The notes under the pieces: model-generated
Seen by the model: the letters and a program-made list of their open reading frames with translations, nothing else
Databases searched by the model: none
Told to the model about the DNA's origin: nothing
Position numbers and translations under genes: made by a program
In this document: positions 28,232-33,351 of the stretch, in pieces
Numbering within the stretch: the stretch's first letter is position 1
How the letters are laid out: each line of letters begins with the position of its first letter
NCBI GenBank assembly: GCA_017549335.1
Contig: JAFYVB010000017.1
Coordinates: 1-64,000, forward strand
Length of the DNA stretch: 64,000 nt
Direction of reading: 5' to 3'
Origin: Clostridia bacterium
GTDB lineage: Bacteria; Bacillota; Clostridia; Christensenellales; Aristaeellaceae

Positions 28232-30124
28232 TTATTTCTTGGAAGACAATATTTCCTGCGCTCTTTCTTCTTCGAACTGGCTCATATAGAGTTTGTAGTA
28301 GCTGCCCTTTTGCCGCATCAGTTCCTGATGGCTGCCCATCTCCTTTATACCGCCGTTTTCGATCACCAGAATGCGATCGGCAGAGCGCACGGTGGACAAA
28401 CGGTGAGCGATAATAAAGGACGTTCTGCCCTTAAGCACCTGCGAAATGGCATTCTGAATGATGATTTCGGTCTCGGTATCCACCGAAGAGGTGGCTTCAT
28501 CCAGTACGAAAATGCGGGGATCGCCAAGGATCGCACGGGCAAAGGAGATCAGCTGCTTTTCACCGGTGGACAGGCGGTTGCCGCCCTCGCCCACGTCGGT
28601 ATCATAGCCGTTTTCCAGTTTCAGAATGAACTGTTCGGCATTCACCATCTGCGCGGCGCGGCGGATCTCCTCCTCCGTTGCATCCAGCTTGGAATAGCGG
28701 ATGTTATCGCGGATGGTGCCCGAGAACAGCCTCGGCTCCTGGAGGACGTAGCCCAGATTGCTTTGCAGCCACAGCTGGCTGCGCTTGCGGTAGTCCACGC
28801 CGTCGATCCTGATCTCGCCCGCCGTGGGTTCATAGAAACGGCATACCAGATTGACAACGGTGGATTTTCCGGCGCCCGTGGGGCCGACCAGGGCAATGGT
28901 TTCCCCCGCCTTAACGTGAAGATTGAAGTCCGAGAGCACTTTATCGCCCTCTTTATACTTGAAATCCACGTGTTCAAAGTCGATGTCGCCGCAGATCTCG
29001 GGCCAGTTTTCCCGCTTGGGATGGAAGCTGTCCCCAAAGACCGCCTCCACCTCGGGAGTATCCTTGATCTCGGCTTCGGTTTCCAGCAGGGTGATCACCC
29101 TTTCTGCCGCCGCCTGCGCCGACTGCATTTCGGACAGTACGCCTGCAATGCCGCGGACAGGCTCAAAGAACTGCACGGTGTAATTGACAAACACCTGGAT
29201 CACGCCCAGGGACATGGCGCCGGCCAGCACCAGATTGCCGCCGTGCCAGAGCGCATAGGCGGTGGCGATGGAGCCAAGAGAGATAACAATGGGCAGATAG
29301 GCCGCATTGATGGACGCTGCACGCACGGAGGAGCGGTGCATCTCCCGCGTCAACTCCGTAAACTCTTCTTCGTTCATTTCCTCGCGCACCAGCGTTTTGG
29401 TGGTCTTGGCGCCCATGATGCCTTCATTGAAGGAGCCCGTGATGCGGGAGTTGGTTTTGCGCACGGCGCGCCAGCTTTTAAGGATCTTTCTTTGGAACCA
29501 GAAGGAGATCAGCGCCAGCGGCGGCAAAACCAGCATGACTGCCAGCCCCAGCTTCCAGTTGATGGACAGCATGGTCGCCGAGCACATGATCAGCATCGCC
29601 ACGCCCCAGCACAGATCCAGCAGACTCCAGCCGATGGTTTCGCTCAGACGCTGAATATCGCTGGTCATGCGGCTCATCAGATGCCCCACCGGCATCCTGT
29701 CATAATAGGAGAAGGGCAGTTCCTGCAGCTTGTGGAAGGCTCTGTCACGGATGATAAAGCACACGCCCGTTTCGATCTTGGTTCCCAGATACAAAAAGGC
29801 ATAGATCATAGCCACCTGCATGGCCAGCGTGACCACATACACGCAGATAAAGCCTGCCATGGCGCTGCCGCCGAAGAAAAGGCAGCCAACAGCTTCAATT
29901 ACTTTCCCGATCAGATCCCGTTTTCCTGCGGGGTTATCGTAGATCAGAAAGTCGATGGCATAGCCGGTCATCAGGGGAAACAGTACGTCCAGCAGCGCCG
30001 AAACGGTCATACATACCGCCAGAACGATCAGATGTCCCCAGTATTCCCGGGAATAGCGCAGAAGCGTGCGCCACAAGCCCAGATCAAATTTTTGAGAATA
30101 ATCCTGTTCCTGTACCTGCTGCAT
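28232..30124 (-). CDS. ABC exporter half-transporter, subunit with complete Walker B
   Basis: A 630-residue fusion of six-helix membrane domain (about 20-325) and ATPase domain (about 375-615). Walker A GPTGAGKST, Walker B IFVLDEATSSVD with the catalytic glutamate, but a degenerate signature LSTGEKQL in place of LSGGQ. Together with the upstream subunit, which has the opposite defect, it matches heterodimeric exporters such as BmrCD, LmrCD and TM287/288, where one of two ATP sites is inactive. Its ATG overlaps the partner's stop as TAATG. Likely exports drugs or lipophilic compounds. Confidence 0.93.
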   Translation of the reverse strand: MQQVQEQDYSQKFDLGLWRTLLRYSREYWGHLIVLAVCMTVSALLDVLFPLMTGYAIDFLIYDNPAGKRDLIGKVIEAVGCLFFGGSAMAGFICVYVVTLAMQVAMIYAFLYLGTKIETGVCFIIRDRAFHKLQELPFSYYDRMPVGHLMSRMTSDIQRLSETIGWSLLDLCWGVAMLIMCSATMLSINWKLGLAVMLVLPPLALISFWFQRKILKSWRAVRKTNSRITGSFNEGIMGAKTTKTLVREEMNEEEFTELTREMHRSSVRAASINAAYLPIVISLGSIATAYALWHGGNLVLAGAMSLGVIQVFVNYTVQFFEPVRGIAGVLSEMQSAQAAAERVITLLETEAEIKDTPEVEAVFGDSFHPKRENWPEICGDIDFEHVDFKYKEGDKVLSDFNLHVKAGETIALVGPTGAGKSTVVNLVCRFYEPTAGEIRIDGVDYRKRSQLWLQSNLGYVLQEPRLFSGTIRDNIRYSKLDATEEEIRRAAQMVNAEQFILKLENGYDTDVGEGGNRLSTGEKQLISFARAILGDPRIFVLDEATSSVDTETEIIIQNAISQVLKGRTSFIIAHRLSTVRSADRILVIENGGIKEMGSHQELMRQKGSYYKLYMSQFEEERAQEILSSKK

Positions 30125-31947
30125 TACGCATTCACCTCTTTCGCAGCATGACGGGCTTCCTCTTCCTCCAGCGCAGTCTGAATATTGAAGATACGGCTGT
30201 ACAGCCCCTCCTGCGCGATCAGCTGCTTATGGGTTCCCTGCTGGGTAATACGCCCGTCCTCCACCACCAGGATCAGATCGGCCTGCGACAGCGTGACGAT
30301 CCGGTGGCTGATGATAATGGTCGTGGTATCGCGGCTGCGTTCCTTCAGCGCCTTGCGGATGGCGGCGTCGGTTTCGGTATCCACAGCCGAGAGAGAGTCG
30401 TCAAAAATGAGAATATCGTTTTCCTTCATCAGCGTGCGGGCGATGGCCACGCGCTGCTTCTGTCCGCCGGACAGCGTTACGCCCCGCTCGCCTACCACCG
30501 TTTCCCAGCCCTGCTCGCTCTGAAGAATAAACTCAAGGGCTGCCGCATCCCGGGCTGCACGGTCGATCTTCTCCTGCGCGGGCTCGCGCACGGCGATTCC
30601 CACGTTATCGCGGATGGACTTGGAATACAGGAAGGGCTCCTGCAGAACCAGTCCCACGCGGGAGCGGAGATACCCGCGGTCGATCCGGCTTATGTCCACG
30701 CCGCCGATGGTGATCTTGCCCGAATCGGGCGTAAACAGCCGCTGCAAAAGATGCACGATGCTGGACTTTCCGCTGCCCGTCGCCCCCAGAATGGCTACCG
30801 TCTTGCCCTGCGGCACGGTGAAGGACAGATCTTTCAGCACACTGCGCTGGTTATCGTAGCCGAAGGTCACGTTATCAAATACGATGTCGCCGCGCAGAGA
30901 GGGCTTGACCGCATCCGTTTCTTCGGGTTCTTCCTTTTCGTTCAGCACTTCCTCGATACGGGAAAGGGCCACGAAGCTTTTGCCGATGTCCGACAGCGTG
31001 CGTCCCAGCTGACGGATAGGCCAAAGCAGTTTGCCCACATAGCCCGTAAAAACAACCAGCGTACCCACGGTGATCTCCCCGCGGGCTGCAAAGAACACAC
31101 AGGCCAGCAAGGTAATGCAGCTCTGGGTCATGATCAGAGCATCTGAAACCGCCCAATATACCGACAGCAGCTTGCTGCACAGAAAATTCTCTTTGGTGAA
31201 GTTTTTATTGACGCGGTCAAATTTCTCCACTTCGTATTGTTGTCTACCAAACGCGCGTACCACGCGCACGCCGGTGAGACTTTCCTGCAGCATGTCGCTC
31301 AGACGCCCCTCAGCTTCATCCACACGGGTAAAGCTTTTATGCACCAGATTGAAAAACACATAGGCAAACGCAAACAGCACAGGCACCAGCACAAGGCTGA
31401 ACAGCGTCAGCCGCCAGTCCTTCATAAACAGAACGGTCAGCGCGACAACGATCATCATCACCGAGGAAAACACCGCCATCAGCTGATTGGACAGCGTTCT
31501 GCGCACAGTATCCACGTCGCTGGTGCAGCGCTGGATCAGATCACCCGTTTCTGCCTTCACATGATAGCTGAAGGGCAGACGCTGGATGTGGCGGTAAAGC
31601 TTTTCACGCAGGTGCAGCGCAGCGTTCTCGCCCGCGGTATTCTGCAGGCGCACCTTGGCGTAATTGAAGGCGCCGCCCACGGCGCTGACAGCCACGATGA
31701 GGATACCCACGATCCACAGATTTCTGGCCATAAAGCCCGGTCCGCCCCAGGAATCCACGATCCTGTTGATAAAAGCAGGCATGGCCGAAGGCTTTCCGCT
31801 CAGATAATAGTCCAGCGTTTCACCCAGCAGCAGCGGCGTTACATAATCCAGCGCCACCGAGATCACCGTGCAGATCGCCGCACCGATGAAAAACCGCTTG
31901 TTTTTCCCGATCAAACGCGCCATCAGCCGCACTCTTTTTTGATTCAT
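30124..31947 (-). CDS. ABC exporter half-transporter, subunit with degenerate Walker B
   Basis: A 607-residue fusion of six-helix membrane domain (about 15-310) and ATPase domain (about 350-590). Walker A GATGSGKSS and signature LSGGQKQR are complete, but Walker B is ILIFDDSLSAVD: the catalytic Glu is Asp. Paired with the next gene this gives one consensus and one degenerate ATP site, the hallmark of heterodimeric multidrug exporters. The gene is first in the operon and lies behind a leader ORF, a terminator and a hairpin over its ribosome site (31949-32280), which implies inducible expression. Confidence 0.93.
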   Translation of the reverse strand: MNQKRVRLMARLIGKNKRFFIGAAICTVISVALDYVTPLLLGETLDYYLSGKPSAMPAFINRIVDSWGGPGFMARNLWIVGILIVAVSAVGGAFNYAKVRLQNTAGENAALHLREKLYRHIQRLPFSYHVKAETGDLIQRCTSDVDTVRRTLSNQLMAVFSSVMMIVVALTVLFMKDWRLTLFSLVLVPVLFAFAYVFFNLVHKSFTRVDEAEGRLSDMLQESLTGVRVVRAFGRQQYEVEKFDRVNKNFTKENFLCSKLLSVYWAVSDALIMTQSCITLLACVFFAARGEITVGTLVVFTGYVGKLLWPIRQLGRTLSDIGKSFVALSRIEEVLNEKEEPEETDAVKPSLRGDIVFDNVTFGYDNQRSVLKDLSFTVPQGKTVAILGATGSGKSSIVHLLQRLFTPDSGKITIGGVDISRIDRGYLRSRVGLVLQEPFLYSKSIRDNVGIAVREPAQEKIDRAARDAAALEFILQSEQGWETVVGERGVTLSGGQKQRVAIARTLMKENDILIFDDSLSAVDTETDAAIRKALKERSRDTTTIIISHRIVTLSQADLILVVEDGRITQQGTHKQLIAQEGLYSRIFNIQTALEEEEARHAAKEVNA

Positions 31948-31948
31948 C

Positions 31949-31976
31949 GGACAAATTCACTTCCTTTCCTTTGTCC
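31949..31976 (-). promoter_or_regulatory. Hairpin enclosing the ribosome site of the ABC exporter
   Basis: On the minus strand GGACAAA (31970-31976) and TTTGTCC (31949-31955) are perfect repeats with a 14-base loop that contains AGGAAAGGAAGTG, the Shine-Dalgarno region; the ATG follows after one base. Upstream, TGCGCA repeats (about 32000-32030) can form a further stem. Confidence 0.6.
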
Positions 31977-32038
31977 ATACATTAAAGAAAGATATTATGC
32001 CGTGCGCAAATGCCCCGCTCATCTGCGCATAAGCATAC

Positions 32039-32072
32039 AAAAAGGCCGCCTGCCATGGCAGACGACCTTTTA
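32039..32072 (-). terminator. Attenuator terminator upstream of the ABC exporter
   Basis: On the minus strand AAAGGTCGTCTG...CAGGCGGCCTTT forms a stem of about 12 pairs with two G-U wobbles, followed by TTTTTGT. It lies between the leader ORF and the exporter gene, so it must be bypassed for exporter expression. Its 3' arm (CAGGCGGC) is also complementary to GCCGCCTG in the last codons of the leader ORF (32111-32118), a candidate antiterminator. Confidence 0.75.
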
Positions 32073-32099
32073 TTGCGCAAACAAACGGGAAAATCTCCC

Positions 32100-32198
32100 T
32101 TACGCTTTAACAGGCGGCTGCACACAGACAGATGCAAATGCACCAAAAAGACGCACCTTTGCCATGATTGCCAGTTTGCAGAAAATCAAATTCGTCAT
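32100..32198 (-). CDS. Leader peptide of 32 residues upstream of the ABC exporter
   Basis: A short ORF on the minus strand: ATG at 32198, TAA at 32100-32102, starting MTNLIFCKLAIMAKV and ending CVQPPVKA. It has the best ribosome site of the region (AAAGGAGG, six bases before ATG) and follows a near-consensus promoter, so it should be highly translated. Its codons 27-29 (CAG CCG CCT), which encode Gln-Pro-Pro, are complementary to the 3' arm of the terminator that follows. Ribosome position on these codons could therefore choose between terminator and antiterminator, as established for bmrB upstream of bmrCD in B. subtilis. The peptide itself matches no family I know. That it is regulatory is inference. 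Confidence 0.7.
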   Translation of the reverse strand: MTNLIFCKLAIMAKVRLFGAFASVCVQPPVKA

Positions 32199-32251
32199 GT
32201 TGCAGCCTCCTTTCTCAAATTTCATTTATTGGTAATTCATACCACGCGTGC

Positions 32252-32280
32252 ATTGTAGCACGCAGTTTTTCATCTGTCAA
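32252..32280 (-). promoter_or_regulatory. Strong promoter of the leader-ABC exporter operon
   Basis: TTGACA (32275-32280) and TACAAT (32252-32257) on the minus strand with a 17-base spacer; about 45 bases of leader precede the leader-peptide ATG. It begins ten bases past the pfkA stop. Confidence 0.85.
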
Positions 32281-32289
32281 CCCTCTTTT

Positions 32290-33351
32290 TTACAGCGCGT
32301 TGATGGTGTTGTACAGCTGACGGTTGAAGGGGCGCTTGGCCGCAAGCGCCGTGGTGATATCCTCGTGGAAGATCTTGCCCAGCTTCATGCCGATCACGCG
32401 ATTGGACAGGCCGTGATGCAACAGGTTTACCGCCATCACGCCGGCTTCAAAGGCAAACGTGGCGTCACGGGCCGTGGGACGGGCGCCGCGCTGGGTGTAA
32501 CCGATCACCGTCGCACGGGGCTCGGGACGGCTGCCGTCAGGCATGACGCACTTATAGTTGAGCACTTTGGCAAAATAATCCGCATTGATGGAATCATCCT
32601 CATGCACACGCTTGCCGTGGGCGGAAAGATAGCCGTACAGATCGAACTTCTCCATCATTTCCCAAGCGCCCTCGGCAACGACGATCGTGCTGCGGTAATT
32701 GCCGCGGTTGATCTGGCTCTGCAGACGGCGGGCAACGTCTTCAATATTCCACTGATCGGCTTCGGGCGCGATCACGATCTCCGCGCCGGTGGAAGCAGCG
32801 GTCATCAGGGCGATATCGCCGCAGTGACGGCCCATGACCTCCACCACGTGGGGTCTGTCATGGGAACGGGAGGTAGCACGGATGGAGCGCACGGCATCAA
32901 CGCACACATTCACCGCGGTGTCAAAACCCAGCGTCATTTCGGTATAAGCCAGGTCGTTGTCAATGGTGCCGGGGATACCGATGCAGGGAATGCCCTGCTC
33001 GCACAGCGCACGGGCGCCCTGGAAGCTGCCGTCGCCGCCGATGACGATCAGACCGGCCACGTCCATATCCCGCAGGATCTTCGCAGCGTTCTGCTGCACA
33101 GCCTTTTCCTTGAATTCAACGCAGCGGGCGGTGCGCAGACGGGTACCCGCCTGGTCAGCCATATCCAAAGCGTTTTCAAGGGTGAGATGTATGAAATCCT
33201 TCTCGGGATTCTTTCCCAGAAGACCATTATAACCGCGGTCCACACCGATCAGGGGCATATCATAAAGCGCTGCGCAGCGAGCGATCGCCGAAACAGCAGT
33301 ATTCATTCCCGGGCTGTCGCCGCCGCTGGTCAAAACAGCAATTTTCGACAT
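32290..33351 (-). CDS. pfkA: ATP-dependent 6-phosphofructokinase
   Basis: A 353-residue glycolytic kinase (fructose 6-phosphate to fructose 1,6-bisphosphate). GGDSPGMN (10-17), GGDGS (105-109, the Gly form expected for ATP rather than pyrophosphate use), and GTIDND (128-133, catalytic Asp131) are intact. It is about 30 residues longer than typical bacterial PfkA; the extra segment lies after VVAEGAWEMM and before TVIGYTQRGARPTARD. The start has AAGGAG and its own promoter. Confidence 0.95.
   Translation of the reverse strand: MSKIAVLTSGGDSPGMNTAVSAIARCAALYDMPLIGVDRGYNGLLGKNPEKDFIHLTLENALDMADQAGTRLRTARCVEFKEKAVQQNAAKILRDMDVAGLIVIGGDGSFQGARALCEQGIPCIGIPGTIDNDLAYTEMTLGFDTAVNVCVDAVRSIRATSRSHDRPHVVEVMGRHCGDIALMTAASTGAEIVIAPEADQWNIEDVARRLQSQINRGNYRSTIVVAEGAWEMMEKFDLYGYLSAHGKRVHEDDSINADYFAKVLNYKCVMPDGSRPEPRATVIGYTQRGARPTARDATFAFEAGVMAVNLLHHGLSNRVIGMKLGKIFHEDITTALAAKRPFNRQLYNTINAL

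Follow-up and report, generated by a model that had tools for sequence, protein, structure and literature searches.

A predicted ribosome-controlled attenuator with the leader's own Shine-Dalgarno sequence as a pairing arm, upstream of a BmrCD-like exporter in Clostridia

We analysed a 64,000-nucleotide (nt) stretch of DNA from a Clostridia bacterium of the family Aristaeellaceae (assembly GCA_017549335.1, contig JAFYVB010000017.1, positions 1–64,000; hereafter the window). On its minus strand, a short leader open reading frame (ORF) and an intrinsic terminator separate a promoter from the genes of a predicted multidrug ATP-binding cassette (ABC) exporter. The presence of an attenuator upstream of the exporter is very likely. 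More specifically, and with a probability of about 0.75, we read the element from sequence comparison as a ribosome-controlled transcription attenuator in which early stalling on the leader would switch the predicted exporter on. Four RNA regions are involved (Table 1): region 1 comprises the leader's Shine-Dalgarno sequence (SD), spacer and start codon, region 2 the final leader codons, and regions 3 and 4 the two arms of the terminator. The pairing of regions 1 and 2 (1:2, the putative anti-antiterminator) and that of regions 2 and 3 (2:3, the putative antiterminator) share region 2, while 2:3 and the terminator (3:4) share region 3, which makes the structures mutually exclusive. With the leader untranslated, 1:2 would form, region 3 would stay free and 3:4 would terminate transcription (OFF); during undisturbed translation a ribosome at the stop codon would cover region 2, again giving OFF; and a ribosome stalled in the first codons would block 1:2, so that region 2 could pair with region 3 ahead of the synthesis of region 4 and the polymerase would read through. 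Permissive stalls would extend to about codon 20 in the window and to codon 4 in the shortest case. An original prediction, made from the letters of the window, had proposed leader-controlled attenuation of a BmrCD-like exporter, which comparison with relatives supports well, through a switch between region 2 and region 4 (2:4), which turned out to be unconserved. The two pairings described here, SD with leader end (1:2, the best conserved) and the 2:3 antiterminator, were absent from it.

The exporter was found in 120/308 genomes of the family (E up to 1e-180), and the upstream regions of 110 of these 120 loci were read, a few of them being short or lying inside the gene (G168, G290). Strict rules (SD, ORF of 8–70 codons, terminator) kept 71 and, after removal of a spurious 8-codon case (G223), 70 elements from 20 genera. 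In these, cognate duplex energies were compared with those of partners from other genera (2000 permutations), region 2 being located via its match to region 1, a choice neutral between regions 3 and 4. Cognate 1:2 duplexes averaged −21.1 kcal/mol against −16.2 for non-cognate ones and were better in 20/20 genera (0/2000 permutations); for 2:3 the values were −16.6 against −13.3 kcal/mol, with the cognate partner better in 19/20 genera (0/2000 permutations). No signal was obtained for 1:3 and 1:4, where cognate partners were better in 9/20 genera each. Against dinucleotide-shuffled partners, mean z was −2.7 for 1:2, with 19/20 genera below −1, and −1.4 for 2:3. Replacement of the leader tail by the element's own gene start reduced 1:2 to −14.4 kcal/mol, the cognate tail being better in 64/70 elements.

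The pairing originally proposed as antiterminator, between leader codons 27–29 and the terminator 3' arm, which would displace the 5' arm, has an exact, GC-rich match of 8 base pairs in the window (GCCGCCTG/CAGGCGGC). Duplex energies there are −20.6 kcal/mol for 1:2, −14.3 for 2:3 and −20.7 for 2:4, the last with a z of −2.4 against shuffled 3' arms, and genus g1 overall is 3.8 kcal/mol better than non-cognate. Across the family, however, cognate 2:4 duplexes averaged −12.1 kcal/mol against −12.8 for non-cognate ones and were better in only 4/20 genera, the window's included; 1948/2000 permutations reached the observed mean, and mean z against shuffled partners was +0.33, with 0/20 genera below −1. 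By eye, the GCCGCC match is absent in G005, the terminator of which has no complementarity of the 2:4 kind to its leader end, and carries one mismatch in G004 and G007. In addition, region 4 is transcribed last, so that region 3 is kinetically favoured, and the stalled RNA has, at equilibrium, 0.2 pairs of 2:4 in the window and 4.7 in G006. An antiterminator of the 2:4 type in this species is therefore improbable. Loss of complementarity among homologues, named beforehand as refuting, was thus found for 2:4, whereas 1:2 and, within the family, 2:3 were kept.

The variety of base pairs was counted in 78 elements from 26 groups, with pairs taken from each best duplex, so that pairing as such is given by construction and its variety is the informative part. 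If positions in the SD arm are counted from the G of GGAG, each of positions 2–8 takes three or four Watson-Crick types among the 26 groups; position 3 is C-G in 11, G-C in 8 and T-A in 7 groups, and position 6 is C-G in 9, A-T in 8, G-C in 7 and T-A in 3. Both arms change together, as in GGCTGC with GCAGCC in g1 vs AAAGGAGGCCGC with GCGGCC in most of g30, and other matched pairs are GGGTCGCAAA with TTTGCGACCC (g9), GGGCGCAGA with TCTGCGCCC (g14), CTGCCAC with GTGGCAG (g48) and AGGCGGCTGAA with TTCGGCTGCCT (g36). Within the family, the complementarity behind the predicted 1:2 and 2:3 helices is conserved with compensatory change.

A search for region 2 anywhere as far as the terminator placed its end before the leader stop codon in 66/70 elements, with a median of 9 nt between the two. 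After shuffling of the leader interior, the ORF stayed open past region 2 in approximately 0.38 of cases, and the product over 19 genera was 2e-9, a value helped somewhat by the preselection of elements for ORFs of 8–70 codons. The reading frame of region 2 is 0, 1 and 2 in 28, 12 and 26 elements, respectively, and undefined in 4. As region 2 occurs in all three frames with the stop codon kept close behind it, RNA position and not the peptide must be under selection; the ribosome must be able to traverse region 2 and stop there, and the identity of the peptide is of little consequence. For region 2 to remain free, the P-site codon can lie no further along than codon 4 to 44, depending on the element (median 15; 20 in the window), and stalling must therefore be early.

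The signal is likely a general effect of ribosome-targeting drugs, which slow or arrest early elongation, and not one drug-specific arrest peptide, because the leader peptide is poorly conserved and the +x+ arrest motif is not enriched (18 occurrences vs 15.6 expected in 70 leaders). The same switch could instead answer to an arrest peptide specific for a drug or an amino acid, after the manner of erm or trp leaders: KVR in the leaders of the window and G008 is a +x+ motif, and relative to a base-shuffle expectation, which holds no control for codon usage, Asn, Met, Ala and Phe are over-represented in the leaders and acidic residues, His and Pro under-represented. In the part of the 70 leaders before region 2, observed and expected numbers are 119 and 40 for Asn, 67 and 24 for Met, 16 and 41 for Glu, and 21 and 70 for Pro, and 157 Arg and Lys stand against 41 Asp and Glu. 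Such specificity is nevertheless unlikely, given the unremarkable +x+ count, the changing frame of region 2, leader lengths from 16 to 57 codons and the lack, by eye, of any residue run or motif common to leader peptides of different genera. The leader peptide was also tried as a conserved protein family and rejected: a protein search of 200 family genomes gave 4 matches, of which only those of the window and G008 were real, and the element was not shown at either of the two weak ones (L015 and L016, E 0.08–0.09). As a separate observation, g30 leaders carry similar RNA upstream of region 2, e.g. AAGGGTATTTTTGCGCATTTTTGCGGCC, which is read in different frames (KGIFAHFCGRL, KGYFCAFLRP); the conservation of this stretch (e.g. 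in L101, L102 and L106–L108) exceeds the need of 1:2 pairing alone.

Folding of the window RNA from SD to terminator gave −66.1 kcal/mol against a shuffle mean of −53.3 (z −3.0; 0/200 shuffles as good), and the best naked structure pairs the SD with the final leader codons. The stretch left free by a stalled ribosome, cut before region 4, adopts the 2:3 fold with a z of −2.5 (5/200 shuffles as good). In the window RNA truncated at the same place, 12.4 pairs of 1:2 and 0.3 of 2:3 were obtained for the naked molecule, and 10.1 pairs of 2:3 with a ribosome on codon 4; the corresponding means for the 70 elements were 9.1 (1:2) and 3.1 (2:3) when naked, and 9.4 (2:3) with codon 4 held. Stalling added at least two 2:3 pairs in 16/20 genera, and a foreign region 3 in the stalled truncated RNA lowered 2:3 from 9.4 to 5.9 pairs, the cognate one being better in 19/20 genera.

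Exporter orthologues occur in 7/11 genomes of the window's genus, and the leader is present in 7/7. Invariant within the genus are AAAGGAGGCTGC, the first A of which lies exactly 15 nt from the ATG, and CAGCCGCC near the leader end, read as Gln-Pro-Pro in six members and as Arg-Ser-Arg in G005. Sequencing error as the source of this odd frame was considered and dropped, because many g30 members use the same frame. An exact-sequence scan of about 85,000 named genomes returned 62 stretches, with 6 real leaders, all from the window's genus (two of the leader-bearing record titles name sheep rectum and roe deer omasum); the remaining 56 were rejected as having no leader plus terminator. A pattern scan of the family matched in 8/308 genomes, of which 5 were real. 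A scan combining all criteria was passed by 71/110 family upstream regions from 22/29 genera, vs 0/550 dinucleotide shuffles, and missed all of g35 (0/5) and most of g16 (1/8) and g24 (1/6). At the gathering score, Rfam gave 0 matches in the window and 0 in 20 relative loci; seven sub-threshold matches had E from 0.052 to 4.9. Such switches can escape RNA family searches, since arms, peptide and frame change while complementarity stays.

In a search of the order the exporter was found in 43/347 genomes, 30 of them in other families, and 18 of these 30 upstream regions were read (that of G604 lies inside the gene). Eleven of the 18, from families f10, f17 and f23, passed the all-criteria scan, vs 0/90 shuffles; f31 (2 loci) and f15 (1 locus) failed it. 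In the 12 testable leaders outside the family, the element's own 1:2 beat the mean with foreign tails in 12/12. At class level, with the exporter in 60/341 genomes, 3/27 upstream regions (G732, G775 and G645) passed, vs 0/135 shuffles, and 9/27 passed a looser scan; this survey is weak, at least 7/27 upstream regions lying by eye inside the gene (contig ends) and a 28th locus at a contig edge. By eye, G645 and G678 have GGTCGTGA with GCACGACCT, and their terminator 5' arm carries a similar AGGTT(C/T)GTGC copy; both genomes have the three-way match between region-1 motif, leader end and terminator 5' arm. In other orders of the class, L244 (G645), L233 (G678), L235 (G762) and L217 (G721) have the exporter behind two successive terminators resembling CCATAGGT..ACCTATGG (by eye). 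We put forward tentatively, as slightly less than an even chance, that these elements represent an ancient, sequence-free class of Clostridia attenuators, with SD, leader end and terminator 5' arm mutually matched, which would sense any early ribosome arrest and regulate multidrug efflux in this order and outside it.

Several observations weigh against the proposed 1:2/2:3/3:4 switch. The advantage of cognate 1:2 partners is near zero (−0.1 kcal/mol) in g5 and g24, and in g5 cognate 2:3 is worse than non-cognate. With shuffled partners, 2:3 reaches z < −1 in 11/20 genera only, and in the window it is interrupted by mismatches and weaker than 2:4. Outside the family, own 2:3 beats the foreign mean in just 6/12 leaders, some terminators having possibly been misplaced by the finder. 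Naked truncated RNA of G008 already prefers 2:3 (12.7 pairs; 0.1 of 1:2), that of G042 is split (5.5 and 6.9), and the stalled truncated RNA of G045 shows no 2:3. The strict rules are failed by 39/110 upstream regions (29 for the leader, 3 for the SD and 7 for the terminator), several of which (G207, G067, G135, G134, G124), judged by eye, do have the element with another SD, and g13 (5 genomes), g6 (1) and g41 (1) appear to have no element in the upstream regions read; many of the members compared are unfinished metagenome assemblies. Finally, full-length stalled RNA at equilibrium has 9.8 pairs of 3:4 and 1.9 of 2:3 (10.9 and 0.5 in the window), and it mostly terminates in every state, with G045 and G051 as exceptions, so that equilibrium folding was dropped as a predictor of the ON state. 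As the terminator is favoured even when the ribosome is stalled, the switch must be kinetic and decided before region 4 is made, in line with the usual view of how attenuators work. Stability of the terminator in all states at equilibrium, together with the strength of the 1:2 signal and the unclear 2:3 outside the family, would also suit an arrangement in which 1:2 does no more than restrain leader translation, with the terminator as a constant, unregulated damper on the exporter. However, such a damper needs neither the 2:3 complementarity kept in 19/20 family genera nor the placement of the stop codon shortly after region 2, and we consider it slightly less probable than even the 2:4 switch.

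The features of the locus are compiled in Table 1. Promoter, 32-codon leader with a strong SD, intrinsic terminator (placed at 32039–32072 in the original prediction) and the hairpin over the exporter's ribosome site had all been predicted and are present, the last being lineage-specific. The leader reads AAAGGAGG-CTGCAAC-ATG followed by the 32-codon ORF; an alternative in-frame upstream ATG would give 41 codons, and the shorter version is preferred because of the SD position. TTGACA and TACAAT were found in 7/7 same-genus leaders (by eye).

Table 1. Positions in the window of the attenuator components and adjoining genes
Feature	Positions	Strand	Remarks
pfkA	32290-33351	-	upstream neighbour of the leader promoter
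Sigma-A type promoter TTGACA-17-TACAAT, extended -10	32252..32280	-	11/12 consensus matches, TG before second hexamer
Region 1: leader SD AAGGAGG, spacer CTGCAAC and start codon; 5' arm of 1:2 (putative anti-antiterminator)	32196..32212	-	
Leader ORF, 32 codons + stop	32100..32198	-	sequence MTNLIFCKLAIMAKVRLFGAFASVCVQPPVKA, preceded by AAAGGAGG
Region 2: TGTGTGCAGCCGCCTG, final leader codons; predicted partner of region 1 or region 3	32111..32126	-	
Small hairpin GGGAGATTTTCCC	32087..32099	-	immediately 3' of leader stop
Region 3: terminator 5' arm AAGGTCGTCTGCCA; alternative partner of region 2 (putative antiterminator)	32056..32069	-	
Region 4: terminator 3' arm TGGCAGGCGGCCTT	32042..32055	-	
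T run of intrinsic terminator	32039..32043	-	stem about 32067-32044, then T5
Hairpin GGACAAA..TTTGTCC enclosing exporter SD	31949..31976	-	lineage-specific
ABC exporter subunit 1 (P0001)	30124..31947	-	607 aa; Walker B FDDS (degenerate); YheI/TM_0288-like
ABC exporter subunit 2 (P0002)	28232..30124	-	630 aa; degenerate signature LSTGE; YheH-like; 1-base overlap with subunit 1

Only 9 nt lie between the pfkA stop and the leader promoter (window 32281–32290), with no terminator between them, and pfkA transcripts may therefore also enter the attenuator. The same arrangement, with no space for another terminator before the -35 hexamer, could mean that this terminator serves pfkA, the leader ORF being fortuitous. 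By eye, however, the promoter is kept with the element where the upstream sequence differs (G008, G006), and in G005 a pfkA-like gene is followed by a hairpin and T run of its own, which precede the promoter; the chance of this explanation is negligible. An inverted repeat, GCGTGC/GCACGC, which flanks TACAAT (window 32246–32263) and turned up as a plus-strand terminator-like site, has a similar counterpart in G008 and in no other genus member (by eye); it may be an operator or due to chance. Near the leader stop, a short hairpin of unrelated sequence was seen by eye in 7/7 genus members (the window and L053, L057, L063, L065, L072 and L078) and may serve for pausing or as a spacer within the 2:3 loop. 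The GGACAAA..TTTGTCC hairpin is common to G000 and G008 and was not seen in the other 5 genus members (by eye).

The exporter consists of two overlapping ABC half-transporters, with FDDS in P0001 and LSTGE in P0002 (by eye), which we take to be marks of one degenerate ATP site across the two subunits, as the original prediction had done in calling the exporter heterodimeric. Matches in the PDB were YheI and TM_0288 chains for P0001 and YheH and TM_0288 chains for P0002 (YheI and YheH are presumably BmrC and BmrD), and two-domain P-glycoprotein chains outscored these in both match lists. Among the 25 best-ranked of 187 and of 186 NCBIfam matches, no family exceeded its cut-off for either subunit.

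Structure and evolution of the element are well supported within the family; we infer regulation and signal. If true, the class would couple the start of translation and the termination of transcription through a single RNA strand: 'no initiation' and 'finished' would both mean OFF, and only 'started but stuck' ON. In little-studied Clostridia, multidrug efflux may in this manner come to respond to drugs with no protein regulator involved, and the three-way matching rule (SD, leader end, terminator 5' arm) would be usable as a genome scan. In the titles and abstract openings found by literature searches (open-licence papers only), the element was undescribed. Judged by its predicted pairings, it is ordinary in kind and new in design and breadth, with the leader's own SD as the anti-antiterminator arm.

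Among known systems, E. coli trp-type attenuators alternate between 1:2, 2:3 and 3:4, with the stop codon near region 2 and control codons in region 1; the element described here has the same alternation, as predicted, and a stop codon near region 2, and differs from trp in using the SD as region 1; control codons were not observed. It also has the features of resistance-gene attenuators, namely a leader ORF with a ribosome site between promoter and gene, and an intrinsic terminator upstream of the gene. Published accounts describe bmrB, vmlR and rli80 (acting on transcription) and cplR (on translation) as leader-ORF attenuators of resistance genes (PMC4191407, PMC9226507, PMC6310831, PMC10201436). 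The first three respond to ribosome-targeting drugs via their leader ORFs (PMC4191407, PMC6310831, PMC9226507), and accounts of vmlR (PMC9226507) and rli80 (PMC6310831) describe an anti-antiterminator which has to be opened by ribosomes. In B. subtilis bmrB-bmrCD, as here, a short leader precedes a multidrug ABC exporter pair, with an intrinsic terminator and a predicted antiterminator and anti-antiterminator, and in bmrB-bmrCD expression falls when leader translation is blocked (PMC4191407). Unlike bmrB, whose terminator lies inside the leader coding region (structures at nt 60–162; PMC4191407), the present terminator is 3' of the stop (leader stop ending at 32100, stem starting near 32067), and its predicted anti-antiterminator arm is the leader's SD; the 'independent design' originally suggested holds insofar as the position of the terminator is concerned. 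The B. subtilis vmlR upstream ORF, uORF(MIN), shares the logic of anti-antiterminator, antiterminator and terminator, there with a drug-stalled ribosome, and has an SD-sequestering hairpin at the main gene (PMC9226507); by analogy with SL-4 of vmlR, the hairpin at the exporter SD is possibly a second, translational layer. In contrast, the vmlR uORF is a tripeptide and its SD is described as single-stranded ahead of the anti-antiterminator (PMC9226507), whereas here the SD would lie within the helix and the ORF has 16–57 codons. Loss of the start codon prevents activation of L. monocytogenes rli80-hflXr and loss of the anti-antiterminator makes it constitutively ON (PMC6310831), and the same logic is predicted for the present element; unlike it, rli80 carries the RLR macrolide motif and controls an HflX-like ribosome-splitting factor (PMC6310831). 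Among other leaders, MsrDL directly obstructs the terminator (PMC10314930); toiL, through stalls at different places, detects at least five drug classes (PMC12121999), a precedent for a general sensor of the kind proposed here.
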